DNA of 64,000 nucleotides from Variovorax sp. HW608 (lineage in GTDB: Bacteria; Pseudomonadota; Gammaproteobacteria; Burkholderiales; Burkholderiaceae_C). The stretch is taken from positions 1,798,001 through 1,862,000 of the forward strand of contig NZ_LT607803.1 in NCBI RefSeq assembly GCF_900090195.1. Reading direction: 5' to 3'. The notes under the pieces are model-generated. The model was not told where the DNA came from and made no database searches. It saw nothing but the letters and a program-made list of their open reading frames with translations. Shown here one piece after another: positions 1 to 5,068 of the stretch (positions are counted from its first letter, which is position 1; each line of letters opens with the position of its first letter). A program made the translations under genes and the position numbers.

Positions 1-10
1 GCGTGCTCAT
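1..10 (-). CDS. ABC transporter permease, first codons only (PhnE-like position)
   Basis: A minus-strand ATG at 8-10 overlaps the TGA of the upstream ATPase gene (ATGA overlap) and reads Met-Ser-Thr before leaving the window. In PhnCDE-type systems the permease follows the ATPase, so a permease is the expected product. That is inferred from position only, because three codons carry no family signal. Confidence 0.4.
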
Positions 11-846
11 CGGCATGCGCTCGGGCGGGCCCGGCGCGCGCCTGCCGCGCCGTCGATGTCATAGCTCGGCGCCTGCGTCGGCAGCAGGCTGCCTTCGTTC
101 GCATAGAGCTCCTGCAGCATCGCGCGGCTGACCTCGGCGGCCGGTGCGTCGAAGACCACCACGCCGGCGCGCAGGCCGACGATCCGGTCGAACCACTTCA
201 GCGCGAGGTCCACTGCGTGCAGCGAAGCCAGCAGCGTCGCGCCGCTGTTGCGGCTCTGCGCGACCAGTTCGCCCACCGCCATGTCGGCCAGCGTGGGATC
301 GAGCGCCGACACCGGCTCGTCGGCCAGGATCAGCTCCGGCGCCTGGTAGAGCACGCGCGCCATGCCGACGCGCTGCAGCTGGCCGCCCGAGAGGCTGTCG
401 CAGCGGTCGAAGAGGCGGTCGGCCATGTCCAGCCGCGCGAGCGCCGCCTCGGCGCCGGCGATGTCCGAAGGCAGCAGCAGCGAGCCCAGCGCGCGCCATG
501 CCGACCAGCGGCCCAGCCGCCCGGCCAGCACCGCCGTGACCACGCGCAGCCGCGGCGGGATCGGCGGCGCCTGGTGGATCAGCCCGACGCGCGAGCGCAG
601 CGCACGCAGCGCGCCGCTGTGCAACTGCCACGGGTGCTCGCCGAGCAGTTCGATGCGGCCGTCGCTTGCGCGCAAGGCGGTCGCGGCCACGCGCAGCAGG
701 CTGGTCTTGCCCGCGCCCGACGGGCCGACGACCGCGACCCGCGCACCCCGCGGCACCTGCAACGCGACGCCCTGCAGCGCGCGCTGGCCGTTGGGGTGGA
801 CGAGGCCGACATCGTGGAGCACCAGCGCGGCATCGGCGGCGTTCAA
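7..846 (-). CDS. ABC transporter ATP-binding protein, phosphonate (PhnC)-type
   Basis: This is the cytoplasmic ATPase of an ABC importer, 279 residues. Visible motifs are Walker A (GPSGAGKT), signature (LSGGQLQR) and Walker B followed by the catalytic glutamate (LILADEP). The overall sequence resembles PhnC. It starts 15 nt after the stop of the binding-protein gene and overlaps the next gene by ATGA, so binding protein, ATPase and presumed permease form one transcription unit. The unit lies directly downstream of senA, which suggests a selenium oxyanion as substrate rather than phosphonate; that is inference. The last 10 or so residues are Arg/Ala-rich and not part of the fold. Confidence 0.88.
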
Positions 847-861
847 CGGCGCGGCCTCCGG

Positions 862-1725
862 CTACTTGATGAGCCCGGCCGAACGCGCCGCCGACTCGAT
901 GCCGTCGTAGTTCGATGACTGGGTCGGGATGAACTTCGAGGCCCGCTGCAAGGCCAGGATCTCCTTGTGCGCCGGGTTGGCCGGGTCGAGCTGGAGGAAG
1001 GCGTCCTTGATCTTCTTCTGCAGCGCCGGATCGAGCCCGGGCCGCACGGTCCAGTTGTAGTCGTAGTAGGGCGCCGTGGTCGCGAGCACGCGCACCTTGG
1101 TGGCGTTCGGGTTCTTGGCTTCGACCAGCTTGTCCCACACCGAGGCGTTGAGCGCGCCGGCCTCGGCCCGGCCCGCGGCGACGAAGGCCACGGTGGCGTC
1201 GTGTGCGCCCGAGTAGGCGACGGTCTTGAAGTCCTTGTCCGGATCGATGCCGGCCTCCAGCAGGAAGTGGCGCGGCATCAGGCTGCCCGAGGTCGACGAG
1301 GGCGCGCCGAACGCGAAGGTGACGCCCCTGAGGTCCTGCAGCGTCTTCGCCTTGCTGTCGATCGGCACGATGAACTTGCTGGTGAAGGCCTCGTCCTCGG
1401 CGCGCTGCACCAGCGGCACCGCACCGCCCTGCGTGCGCAGCCTGGCCTGCACGTAGGTGAAGCCGCCGAGCCAGGCGAGATCGATCTTGCCGGTGGCGAG
1501 GCCTTCGACCACGGCTGCGTAGTCGGTCACCGGGGTGAACTGAACCTCCATGCCGGTCTGCTGCTTCAGGTAGTCGCCCAGCGGCTTGAACTTGCGCTGC
1601 AGCTCGGTCGGCGCCTCGTCGGGAATGGCCGAGACGCGGAGCAGGCCCGTCTGCGCATGCAGCGGCAGCCCGGCGCCGAGGCCCAGCAGACAGAACAGTG
1701 TGATCGGGATGAGCCGTCGTTTCAT
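862..1725 (-). CDS. Periplasmic binding protein of PhnD family, putative selenium oxyanion receptor
   Basis: This 287-residue protein begins with a signal peptide (Met-Lys-Arg-Arg, hydrophobic core, cleavage after LHAQ). The mature part has PhnD-family features: an N-terminal region ending in LGDYL, a DLAWLGGFTYV segment, and a later SGAHDATVAFVAAGRAEAGA-type segment. The start at 1725 was chosen because the signal peptide begins there; the longer open frame runs antisense into senA. PhnD-like receptors beside selD-type genes have been annotated elsewhere as putative selenate-binding proteins (recalled, not checked). Only 41 nt separate it from the stop of senA on the same strand, so co-transcription is likely. 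The ligand could still be phosphonate or phosphite. Confidence 0.85.
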   Translation of the reverse strand: MKRRLIPITLFCLLGLGAGLPLHAQTGLLRVSAIPDEAPTELQRKFKPLGDYLKQQTGMEVQFTPVTDYAAVVEGLATGKIDLAWLGGFTYVQARLRTQGGAVPLVQRAEDEAFTSKFIVPIDSKAKTLQDLRGVTFAFGAPSSTSGSLMPRHFLLEAGIDPDKDFKTVAYSGAHDATVAFVAAGRAEAGALNASVWDKLVEAKNPNATKVRVLATTAPYYDYNWTVRPGLDPALQKKIKDAFLQLDPANPAHKEILALQRASKFIPTQSSNYDGIESAARSAGLIK

Positions 1726-1766
1726 GGTGTTTTCGGCGATGCCGGTCGGTGTGTGGGACTCGGAGT

Positions 1767-2951
1767 TTAAGAAAGCGCGGCCGTCCTGAAGCCCGCGAAG
1801 ACATCGTGCCGGCCGGGCTGGAAGAAGTTGCGATAGCGCGCGTCGTGCAGCCGCGCATGGGTCGCGAAGGCGCCGCCGCGCAGCTCGCGGTGGTCGCCGA
1901 ACCAGGGCGCCGAATAGTCGCGGTACGGGCCGGGCGCGAAGCCGGGGTAGGGCGCGAAGGGATCGGCGGTCCATTCCCAGACACTGCCGCCCCAGGCGAA
2001 GCCGGGCTGCGCCACTGCAGCTTGCTCCCACTCGGCGGCAGAGGGCAGGCGCCGGCCGGCCCAGCGCGCGTAGGCTTCGGCCTCCCAGGCGCTCAGGTGG
2101 ATCGCGGGCTGTTGCGGATCGAGCGGCAGCCACTGGTCGTACCAGCGCGTTTCCCAGCCGCCGCCGGCCCGGCGCCAGCGCGCGGGATGGCTGCGCGGCT
2201 GCGCAGCGCGCCATGCGCCCGCTTCGCCGGGCCAGAGCGCCGGATCGTCATAGCCGCCCGCCTCGACGAAGCGCAGATAGCTTCCGGCGCGGACCGGCAT
2301 GGCGTCGATCTCGTAGGCCGGCAGATCCATCGCGTGCGCATCGACCTCGTTGTCGAAGGCAAAGCCGGGCCGTCCCCTGGGCCAGCCGATATCCACCCGC
2401 GCTGCCCGGACCGCGATCGGCGGTGCCTCGGCGAGGCGCGGCAGCGCGAGCCCGACCGGCGCGGGATAGCCGAGCGTCGCCCGCAGCCATGCGAAGGCTT
2501 CGCAGTGCATGTCCTCGTGGAACAGCGCCAGCCGATGGAAGTAGAGCGATGCATCGCTGCCGTCCGCAGCGGCCAGCGCCGCAAGGCAGGCATCGAGCTG
2601 TGCATCGAGCCGCTCGTCGAGTTCGGCGCGCGTCGGCAGCGGTGCCGACCAGCGCGCGATGTGGGACAGGCGGGCCGAATCGAACACCGCATCGGGCCCC
2701 GCGATGGCAGCCGGACGATCGGCCTGCACATAGCCCTGCCCATCGACCGTGTGCGGCCCGCGCAGCACCCAGAACTCGCCGAACCACGCGAGATGGGCGA
2801 GCTCCCAGGCCGGGAGATTCACGCCGGCCTGCCGCGGCACCTGCCATTGCGCGTCGCTCAGGTCGAAGGTCCAGGCGCGCGTGCGGGCACGGGCTTCGCG
2901 CAGGGCCGCGGCCAGCGCGTCGCCGGCGAGCGTGCGCGGATCAGCGGCCAT
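1767..2951 (-). CDS. senA: Selenoneine synthase SenA (EgtB-like nonheme iron enzyme)
   Basis: SenA joins a selenosugar to hercynine in the selenoneine pathway known from Variovorax. The 394-residue protein has an N-terminal DinB-like domain and a C-terminal FGE-sulfatase domain, the EgtB architecture. The iron-binding triad is visible as His53 (in HLAWFGEF) and His145/His149 (in HEDMH). The C-terminal domain shows GGSVWEWT, RELRGGAF and RYRNFF motifs. EgtB itself makes the sulfur analogue, so sequence alone does not separate them; the assignment rests on the divergent senB and senC. No EgtD (hercynine synthase) lies in the window. Start at 2951 is preferred; an ATG at 2990 would add 13 residues and overlap the senB start. 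No strong ribosome binding site precedes either. Confidence 0.9.
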   Translation of the reverse strand: MAADPRTLAGDALAAALREARARTRAWTFDLSDAQWQVPRQAGVNLPAWELAHLAWFGEFWVLRGPHTVDGQGYVQADRPAAIAGPDAVFDSARLSHIARWSAPLPTRAELDERLDAQLDACLAALAAADGSDASLYFHRLALFHEDMHCEAFAWLRATLGYPAPVGLALPRLAEAPPIAVRAARVDIGWPRGRPGFAFDNEVDAHAMDLPAYEIDAMPVRAGSYLRFVEAGGYDDPALWPGEAGAWRAAQPRSHPARWRRAGGGWETRWYDQWLPLDPQQPAIHLSAWEAEAYARWAGRRLPSAAEWEQAAVAQPGFAWGGSVWEWTADPFAPYPGFAPGPYRDYSAPWFGDHRELRGGAFATHARLHDARYRNFFQPGRHDVFAGFRTAALS

Positions 2952-2988
2952 GGCCTTGCGGGCCGGATCGGCCTGACAGAATGACGCC

Positions 2989-3948
2989 ATGGGCAATCCT
3001 CGCGTCCTCATCGTTTCGCCAGCACTGGCCGACGCCAACAACGGCAACTGGCGCACCGCCGCGCGCTGGGGCCGGTTCCTCGACGGCGTGGCCGATGTGC
3101 GGATCGCACGCAACTGGGAGGGCGAGGCGTGCGACGCCCTGATCGCGCTGCACGCACGCCGCTCGGCCGATTCGATCGCGCGGCTGCGCGCGGCGCGGGC
3201 GGACGGTCCGATCGGACTCGTCCTGACCGGGACCGACGTGTACCGGGATATCGACGTGGACAGATCTGCGCAACATTCGCTGCAGTGTGCCAGCCAACTG
3301 GTCGTGTTGCAGCCCGATGCGCTCGATCGCCTCGGGGCGGCCGAGCGTGCCAAGGCGCGCGTCATCGTCCAGTCGGCAACCGCATGGCGCCGTCGGCCCG
3401 TGGCGCGTGGCATCCAGCTCGTGGCGGTCGGCCATCTGCGCGAAGAGAAAGACCCGGCCACGCTCATGGCCGCCGCACGCCGCCTGCCCGCCGGCACGCC
3501 GATCCGCATCATCCACATCGGCGAAGCGCTGTCGGCCGAGCTCGGCGAAGCCGCGCGCCGGACCATGGCCGAGTGTCCGCACTACCGCTGGCTCGGCGGA
3601 TTGCCGCAGGGCACCGCGCGCCGCTGGATCGCGCGCGCCCATGCGCTCGTGCACATGAGCCGCATGGAAGGCGGCGCGCAGGTGGTGATCGAGGCGGTGC
3701 GCTCGGGCGTGCCGGTGCTGGCCAGCCGCATCGGCGGCAATCTCGGCCTGCTCGGAGAGGACTACGCTGGCTGCTTTCCCGTCGGCGACGATGCGGCGCT
3801 CGCGGCGCTGATGCAGCGCTTCGCGGCCGAGCCCGACTTCGCCGCCCGGCTGTCGGCGCAGTGCGCGCTGCGGGAGCCGGGCTTTCGCCCCGAACACGAA
3901 CGCAGGCTTGTGCGGCAACTGCTGCACGATCTGCTGGCGCCACCATAA
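2989..3948 (+). CDS. senB: Selenosugar synthase SenB (GT4-like glycosyltransferase)
   Basis: SenB uses selenophosphate and a UDP-sugar to make a 1-selenosugar, the Se donor for SenA. The 319-residue sequence has a GT-B fold look: an N-terminal Rossmann half starting VLIVSP, then a second half with VGHLREEKDP and the retaining-glycosyltransferase E-x7-E motif (EGGAQVVIE). There is no membrane segment, so it acts in the cytoplasm. It is followed 37 nt later by senC on the same strand and diverges from senA with at most 37 nt between start codons. Its closest generic label would be glycosyltransferase family 4; the specific role comes from the gene trio. Confidence 0.9.
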   Translation: MGNPRVLIVSPALADANNGNWRTAARWGRFLDGVADVRIARNWEGEACDALIALHARRSADSIARLRAARADGPIGLVLTGTDVYRDIDVDRSAQHSLQCASQLVVLQPDALDRLGAAERAKARVIVQSATAWRRRPVARGIQLVAVGHLREEKDPATLMAAARRLPAGTPIRIIHIGEALSAELGEAARRTMAECPHYRWLGGLPQGTARRWIARAHALVHMSRMEGGAQVVIEAVRSGVPVLASRIGGNLGLLGEDYAGCFPVGDDAALAALMQRFAAEPDFAARLSAQCALREPGFRPEHERRLVRQLLHDLLAPP

Positions 3949-3985
3949 TGCCCCGCGCAAACGCCAGAAAGCAGAAGGTTCCTCC

Positions 3986-5068
3986 ATGAACGACCAAAGC
4001 CCTTCCCCCTCGCCCCAAGTGGCCGATACGCCCGCGCTCCGGCTCACCAGCTTCTCCCATGGCGGCGGCTGCGGCTGCAAGATCGCGCCGGGCGTGCTCT
4101 CGGAAATCCTGCAGAAGAGCGGCAGCGGCCTGATCCCGCCCGAGCTGCTGGTCGGCATCGAGACCGCCGACGACGCCGCGGTCTACAAGCTCAACGACGA
4201 GCAGGCGCTGATCGCCACCACCGATTTCTTCATGCCGATCGTCGACGACCCCTTCGACTTCGGCCGCATCGCCGCGACCAACGCGATCAGCGACGTCTAC
4301 GCCATGGGTGGCACGCCGATCATGGCGCTCGCGCTGGTCGCGATGCCGGTCAACCAGCTGCCGCTCGAAGTCATCGGCGAAGTGGTGCGCGGCGGCCAGG
4401 CGGTGTGCCGCGAGGCCGGCATCCCGATCGCGGGCGGCCACACGATCGATTCGGTCGAGCCGATCTACGGCCTCGTCGTGATGGGGCTGGTGCATCCCGA
4501 GCGCCTCAAGCGCAATGCGGACGCGAAGGCGGGCGACGTGCTGATCCTCGGCAAGCCGCTCGGCGTGGGCGTGCTGTCGGCGGCGCTCAAGAAGCAGAAG
4601 CTCGATGCCGACGGCTATGCCCAGCTCATCGCCAACACCACGCGCCTGAACAAGCCGGGCACCGCGCTGGCCGCACTCGAAGGCGTGCATGCGCTGACCG
4701 ACGTGACCGGCTTCGGCCTCGCCGGCCACACGCTGGAGATGGCGCGCGGCGCGGGCCTGCGCGCGGTGATCGACTGGCCCCAGGTGCCGCTGCTGTCGAA
4801 CGTCGCCGCGATGGCCGCCGAGGGCTTCGTGACCGGCGCGTCCGGCCGCAACTGGGCCGGCTACGGCGCCGAGGTGCAGCTCGATGCCGCGCTGCCGCCG
4901 GTCGCGCGCGACCTGCTGACCGACCCGCAGACCTCGGGCGGACTGCTGGTGAGCTGTGCGCCCGGGAGCGTGCAGGAGGTGCTGGCGCTGTTCCGCGCGC
5001 AGGGCTTCGAGGGCGCGCGCGTGATCGGCCGCATGGAGGAAGGGCAGGGCCTGCGCGTCGACGCCTAG
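3986..5068 (+). CDS. senC: Selenophosphate synthase SenC (SelD family)
   Basis: This enzyme makes selenophosphate from selenide and ATP. It has 360 residues, near the usual SelD size. The N-terminal glycine-rich loop carries the active-site motif GGGCGCK, with Cys29 and Lys32 at the positions of catalytic Cys17 and Lys20 in E. coli SelD; the residue is cysteine, not selenocysteine, and there is no in-frame UGA. The downstream ATP-binding aspartates (DDAAVY, DVYAMGG) and the AIRS C-terminal domain (TDVTGFGLAGH) are present. A purine-rich site (agaagg) precedes the ATG at 3986. It lies in line with senB. It could also serve SelA/tRNA-Sec or SelU pathways; no selA, selB or selU is in the window. 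Confidence 0.93.
   Translation: MNDQSPSPSPQVADTPALRLTSFSHGGGCGCKIAPGVLSEILQKSGSGLIPPELLVGIETADDAAVYKLNDEQALIATTDFFMPIVDDPFDFGRIAATNAISDVYAMGGTPIMALALVAMPVNQLPLEVIGEVVRGGQAVCREAGIPIAGGHTIDSVEPIYGLVVMGLVHPERLKRNADAKAGDVLILGKPLGVGVLSAALKKQKLDADGYAQLIANTTRLNKPGTALAALEGVHALTDVTGFGLAGHTLEMARGAGLRAVIDWPQVPLLSNVAAMAAEGFVTGASGRNWAGYGAEVQLDAALPPVARDLLTDPQTSGGLLVSCAPGSVQEVLALFRAQGFEGARVIGRMEEGQGLRVDA

Follow-up and report, generated by a model that had tools for sequence, protein, structure and literature searches.

The window analyzed here is a 64,000-nucleotide stretch (1798001-1862000) of the 7.73 Mb contig of Variovorax sp. HW608. Its left end holds the selenoneine genes senA, senB and selD (senC) and, next to senA, an ATP-binding cassette (ABC) importer of the PhnCDE type, and the question is what that importer carries. 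Gene calls were made with family profiles at the NCBIfam cut-offs, with similarities far above chance, and are collected in Table 1. The original prediction of a senABC trio is borne out, in that SenA, SenB and SelD all score above their family cut-offs, the last with its GCGCK motif; His53, His145 and His149 of SenA fall at those positions when the start is placed at 2951, which fixes the residues, and their role as an iron triad is putative. Leftward the order is senA, receptor, ATPase, permease 1 and permease 2, so the 41-nucleotide step from senA to the receptor, followed by the ATPase and the start of a permease, is found as first described, and the operon extends beyond the window edge. 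The importer set is complete, with a receptor, an ATPase and two permeases encoded together. Rightward, senB is followed by selD.

Table 1. Genes, intergenic gaps and receptor pocket residues at the left end of the window.
Feature	Position	Strand	Basis or remark
senA, selenoneine synthase	1767-2951	-	NF041186 480.8 bits, cut-off 420; His53/145/149
senB, selenosugar synthase	2989-3948	+	TIGR04348 408.9 bits, cut-off 300
selD/senC, selenophosphate synthetase	3986-5068	+	TIGR00476 435.6 bits, cut-off 125; GCGCK from residue 28
Periplasmic receptor	862-1725	-	TIGR04553 370.9 bits, cut-off 250
ABC ATPase, PhnC-like	7-846	-	TIGR02315 206.3 bits, under cut-off 266.1; gene order in relatives
Permease 1, PhnE-like	starts at window 16 (1-16), continues left as L009:9180-10016	-	PF00528; TIGR01097 205.1 bits, cut-off 216.7
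Permease 2, PhnE-like	L009:8312-9118, outside window	-	PF00528; TIGR01097 218.4 bits, cut-off 216.7
senA-receptor gap, 41 nt	1726-1766	-	receptor ATG at 1725
senA/senB divergent gap, 37 nt	2952-2988		holds ATTCTGNCAG element common to Variovorax-like loci
Receptor pocket residues	D36, Y69, T90, S143-S144-T145-S146, H175, N193, D222, Y223		window receptor numbering

From this arrangement we infer that senA and the importer are co-transcribed. A promoter and terminator between senA and the receptor had been named as grounds for separating them; neither has a match in the 41-nucleotide gap, in a scan that is uninformative, as it finds no promoter-like site anywhere in 5.2 kb (0.2 expected) and a single terminator-like site, at 3455-3472 within senB (1.4 expected). 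The ATTCTGNCAG element between senA and senB has 12 matches in 1.39 Mb, where 10.6 would be expected with even base use, and 11 of the 12 fall at the senA/senB junction of the window and of 10 Variovorax-like loci. It may be an operator or a coding constraint.

The comparison of the receptor with the putative selenate-binding family and with PhnD, which had been proposed as a check, comes out for the former: the receptor passes TIGR04553 and scores 178.6 bits to TIGR03431, the PhnD model, under the cut-off of 261.1. A phosphonate receptor (PhnD) identity was rejected on this score and on the rankings by fold and by sequence. Counting as a carrier any genome with a receptor over the TIGR04553 cut-off of 250, we compared carriers with SelD matches in an evenly drawn sample of 274 genomes of the class and in 299 genomes of the phylum, with five carriers common to both. 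The 13 class carriers score 347-398 bits, and the next best score is 240. SelD is present in all 13, against 62 of 274 genomes overall (Fisher 1.4e-9), and in 22 of 24 phylum carriers, against 84 of 299 (Fisher 1.4e-11), by tests that ignore shared ancestry, with 8 of the phylum carriers coming from one family (f160) and 3 from another (f180). In the union of the samples, SelD accompanies the receptor in 30 of 32 carriers, the window genome included; the carriers without it are G523, which is 78% complete, and G404, which is complete. Where both are present, no more than 15 kb separates receptor and SelD in 14 of the 30 genomes (0.24 expected), and no more than 2 kb in 8.

Neighborhoods were also read around the best 80 of 438 named relatives, picked by similarity to the window receptor and so biased toward its kin; the closest named receptor among the relatives listed, at 95%, is from Variovorax sp. 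YR216. The ATPase and permease A are there in 77 of these 80 loci, a selenium gene (SelD, SenA, SenB, SelU or SelA) lies within 10 kb in 52, sen genes occur in 39, and SenA stands directly upstream of the receptor on the same strand in 25. In 49 loci both flanks reach 8 kb or more, and 28 of these have a selenium gene; the other 31 are cut shorter. Of the loci with no local selenium gene, 27 of 28 are in SelD-bearing genomes. Other loci place the importer beside SelU or SelA; a Sphaerotilus plasmid has the order mnmH-ATPase-permease-receptor-selD, and on a Paracoccus plasmid the importer adjoins fdh-selA-selB. As a control, 20 PhnD-like receptors under the cut-off were read, some of them in loci truncated by a contig end, and selenium genes adjoin one of the 20 (L231). 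That locus, in G179, encodes an importer of the PtxB type, in the order ATPase-receptor-permease, immediately ahead of selD-selU and outside TIGR04553, possibly an independent recruitment to selenium.

SenA over its cut-off is found in 18 of the 274 class genomes, and 8 of these have the receptor, out of 13 carriers (Fisher 6.7e-8). The two genes are no more than about 15 kb apart in 7 of the 8 genomes and 112 kb apart in G137; in G266 and G126 about 150-160 bases separate the matched stretches, on the same strand. The five class carriers without SenA have SelA, SelU or both. The importer goes with selenium use as a whole and not only with selenoneine. Its link to selenoneine, as originally predicted, stands as far as the adjacency to SenA goes, and is not special, as SenA occurs without the receptor and the receptor occurs with SelU or SelA. 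Four of the eight genomes with SenA and receptor (G266, G126, G154 and G247) have no SelU or SelA match, which leaves selenoneine as the one known outlet for selenium found in them. For sen loci with no importer, 20 of the 38 listed neighboring open reading frames were scanned, giving a mixed set of TauE, SBF, rhodaneses, regulators and several with no family, and the idea of an alternative importer beside the sen genes of receptor-less genomes was dropped. Beside the importer-less loci L117, L116, L120 and L121 there are, respectively, a TauE-like exporter, an SBF transporter, a lactamase-rhodanese and a rhodanese.

The rest of the Variovorax genome bears on how complete the locus is. SelD has a single match in the genome (E <= 1e-50), the one at the sen locus; SelU has one, at 6711936-6712850; and SelA has no match in the genome. 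The suggested search for EgtD elsewhere finds its only match at 5195376-5196275, adjoining an EgtB-like gene. Since that is 3.4 Mb from the sen locus, hercynine is supplied from outside, and since the only selD is here and selU is distant, SelD must also serve 2-selenouridine. The claim that the locus is self-contained was therefore too strong. What remains of one locus running from uptake to coupling with hercynine is a likely importer joined to senABC, with egtD elsewhere and selD shared with SelU. Two further sets of genes may be mentioned. A third SenA/EgtB-like gene (L208, G000:C1:4787324-4788529), distinct from both SenA and the EgtB-like neighbor of EgtD, scores 366.7 bits to SenA, under the cut-off of 420. 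At G000:C1:7348609-7350382 (L002, L003) there are two tandem PhnD-type receptors, under the PhnD cut-off and with SVS replacing STS.

A structural comparison is offered by PhnD1 from marine picocyanobacteria. The two crystallized PhnD1 proteins score above the TIGR04553 cut-off and are placed inside the family in the tree, and the window receptor is identical to PhnD1 at all its pocket positions (D11, Y44, T65, STS, H156, N174, D203 and Y204 in PhnD1 numbering). The markers of PtxB are absent, the window receptor having Phe and Asp where PtxB has Tyr (PhnD1 position 88) and Gln (203). Across the family, the acceptor Asp203 is kept in 33 of 39 rows and the capping Tyr in 37 of 39. In G531 two receptor copies stand in tandem (L258, L260), one canonical and the other lacking the Asp and the capping Tyr; G404 (L259), of the same genus, has the diverged type only and no SelD match. 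A sister family lies just under the cut-off (L024-L032, L034), and its loci with wider flanks (L216-L223, L225) have no ATPase or permease match above 60 bits.

On the gene identities and order, the genomic co-occurrence, the conservation of the pocket and the position in the tree, all of them observed, we find it fairly probable that the locus is a unit for selenium acquisition and use, with an importer for a selenium oxyanion, most likely hydrogenselenite. Selenium as the cargo and selenite as its form are both predictions. In the periplasm, the TIGR04553 receptor would capture selenium as an inorganic oxyanion, with HSeO3- the likeliest form, and would pass it to the pair of PhnE-like permeases, with the PhnC-like ATPase driving transport. 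In the cytosol, selenite would be converted to selenide by enzymes encoded outside the locus, SelD would make selenophosphate, SenB would then make the selenosugar, and SenA would join that to hercynine from the distant EgtD; the same SelD would also supply the distant SelU. Hydrogenselenite is proposed, and not selenate, because phosphite is close to selenite in shape and because the pocket (Tyr, STS, His, acceptor Asp, capping Tyr) matches that of the phosphite-preferring PhnD1.

The ligands of PhnD1 and its relatives help in weighing other cargoes. PhnD1 binds phosphite best and also phosphate and methylphosphonate, with three trigonal oxygens inferred as the requirement. For Prochlorococcus MIT9301, the affinities are 50-120 nM for phosphite versus 55-200 uM for phosphate, and for four Synechococcus they are 0.67-4.3 uM versus 7.4-88 uM. 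An importer for selenate, taking up SeO4(2-) for later reduction, is what the NCBIfam name and the genome annotations say, and all of the selenium co-occurrence would fit it equally; we nevertheless hold it unlikely. Selenate is a dianion at neutral pH, the acceptor Asp kept in most rows suggests, in Prochlorococcus PhnD1, a mono-anionic, protonated ligand, and the measured members favor phosphite over phosphate by at least an order of magnitude. An organic or mixed selenium species such as methylseleninate would need room for its methyl group, which the acceptance of methylphosphonate by PhnD1 says can fit, but the capping Tyr disfavors an R group and methylphosphonate binds more weakly than phosphite by about 100-fold (Trichodesmium PtxB) to 2000-fold (Prochlorococcus PhnD1), and we give such a cargo very little chance.

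The remaining alternative is that the importer carries phosphite or phosphate, or otherwise supplies phosphorus, and stands beside selenium genes only as a fellow accessory. PhnD1 falls inside the family with phosphorus ligands, all of its ligand residues are kept in the window receptor, and most of the pocket occurs in SelD-negative genomes as well. According to excerpts of PMC10284923, picocyanobacterial phnDCE adjoins tesA in almost all genomes, with no named selenium gene, and one study saw PhnD1CE induced by low phosphorus in Synechococcus WH8102. The same excerpts also hold that some other studies saw no significant rise in phnD1C1E1 expression when cells were depleted of phosphorus, and that WH8102 and MITS9220 do not grow on phosphite or methylphosphonate. 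A need for phosphorus, moreover, does not predict SelD in nearly every carrier, nor its closeness to the receptor in about half of them. We rate the phosphorus importer as improbable, about on a par with selenate.

Besides the shared ancestry behind the co-occurrence tests, a number of observations weigh against the hydrogenselenite importer that we prefer. The complete genome G404 has a receptor with no SelD, in a copy without Asp203 and the capping Tyr, and a named carrier (L188), a metagenome-assembled genome, has no SelD match. Three of five plasmid loci have no annotated selenium gene within 9 kb, in gene tables that are incomplete. The receptor is missing from 10 of the 18 SenA genomes, so the circumstance of senABC without the transporter in relatives, named beforehand as adverse, applies in part. 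Asn stands in place of Asp203 in 6 of the 39 rows of the family, and three of these rows come from the SelD-bearing genomes G334, G399 and G435. The sister family shares F88, D203 and Y204 in 8 of 10 rows, and none of its genomes is among the SelD matches of the class sample; as the pocket is mostly shared with a SelD-negative family, it is by itself no proof of selenium, and we rejected it as such. Where ligands have been measured in the family, they are phosphorus oxyanions, and the excerpts of PMC10284923 describe a thermal-shift screen with broad cocktails in which PhnD1 was stabilized only by phosphorus sources. Clustering with phosphonate binders while keeping their ligand residues, also named in advance as adverse, applies in part, to the phosphite- and phosphate-binding PhnD1. 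That clustering loses force because PhnD1 lies inside a selenium-linked family and its physiological role is disputed.

A wider extension would make TIGR04553 a family of dedicated hydrogenselenite importers, with picocyanobacterial PhnDCE as its oceanic branch and phosphite as a selenite mimic. We offer it tentatively, at less than an even chance. In the tree, PhnD1 is sister (100/99) to the receptors of G266, G126, G218, G334, G399 and G435, and each of these genomes encodes, no more than 4 kb from the receptor, a long SelD that is probably a fusion. By domain search the fused SelD of G266 and G126 has Pyr_redox_2 and AIRS domains and matches TIGR03169 and selD; in the other four, open frames of 764-771 codons suggest the fusion. 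Excerpts of PMC1273633 describe in Prochlorococcus marinus and Synechococcus a SelD homolog with an N-terminal NADH-dehydrogenase-like extension, and place ybbB in cyanobacteria as well. The co-occurrence of SelD and PhnD1 in cyanobacteria is taken from papers, and the cyanobacterial fusion is putative as a true SelD. Excerpts of PMC10284923 find PhnD1 in all 97 Cyanorak picocyanobacteria and call its role paradoxical, most strains having no known use of phosphite or C-P lyase. Counting against the extension are the tesA neighborhood just mentioned, three Prochlorococcus genomes with an orphan SelD only (excerpts of PMC5029168), and NCBIfam TIGR04369, which models SelD-like fusions that are "not SelD"; the fusions of G266 and G126 score 461 and 485 to it, with a cut-off of 700. 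No cyanobacterial record is among the plasmid-search matches listed (60 of 939). If true, the extension would remove the PhnD1 paradox by giving picocyanobacterial PhnDCE a role with selenite, and would mean that a protein conserved across picocyanobacteria has been credited to the wrong element.

Of the steps in bacterial selenium use, the first, uptake, is the one that is missing. Excerpts of a May 2026 review (PMC13188914) state that prokaryotes have no identified high-affinity transport system specific for selenium, a gap that the wider hydrogenselenite extension would fill if true, and those of a 2024 paper (PMC11097638) that its authors were aware of no transporter identified as specific for selenium. 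A gene bearing the TIGR04553 name is listed in excerpts of PMC13077682, where export of selenite from the cell is offered as a guess. Our search, covering titles and the starts of abstracts with few subscription journals, found no publication linking sen genes to this importer or PhnD1 to selenium, nothing joining selenite, phosphite, PhnD and binding protein, and a single review on selenoneine, Variovorax and transporters together. No word beginning with "selen" occurs in the main texts of PMC10284923, PMC8786288 and PMC10119275. The operon offers a clean genetic handle, as importer, SelD and product could be tested together where selenoneine is the only outlet found.

Set beside known systems, the locus has the same three enzymes as senABC of Variovorax paradoxus, for which a secondary account (PMC9814287) names those enzymes only, and most of the named Variovorax loci compared share the window layout. 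In 2016 an ABC-transporter ATPase was pointed out in the vicinity of orphan selD (PMC5029168), where the excerpts give no receptor, ligand or selenoneine link. The PtxB phosphite receptors are alike in fold, STS motif, His and capping Tyr, but have Tyr and Gln where TIGR04553 mostly has Phe88 and Asp203, and form a separate clade. Picocyanobacterial PhnD1 and PhnDCE (PDB 7S6G, 5LQ5, 5LQ8) are published as phosphite-binding, probably a constitutive phosphate importer. The window receptor is a member of TIGR04553, and Variovorax homologs are already so named; NCBIfam thus already has names for the sen enzymes and for the receptor family, including the receptor as a putative selenium receptor. 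To that extent the ligand of the importer, which the original prediction counted among the new parts, had a prior annotation. The family is itself hypothetical (hypoth_equivalog), and to its annotation we add the co-occurrence, the pocket and the placement of PhnD1, along with the proposals of selenite instead of selenate and of a tie to the sen operon.

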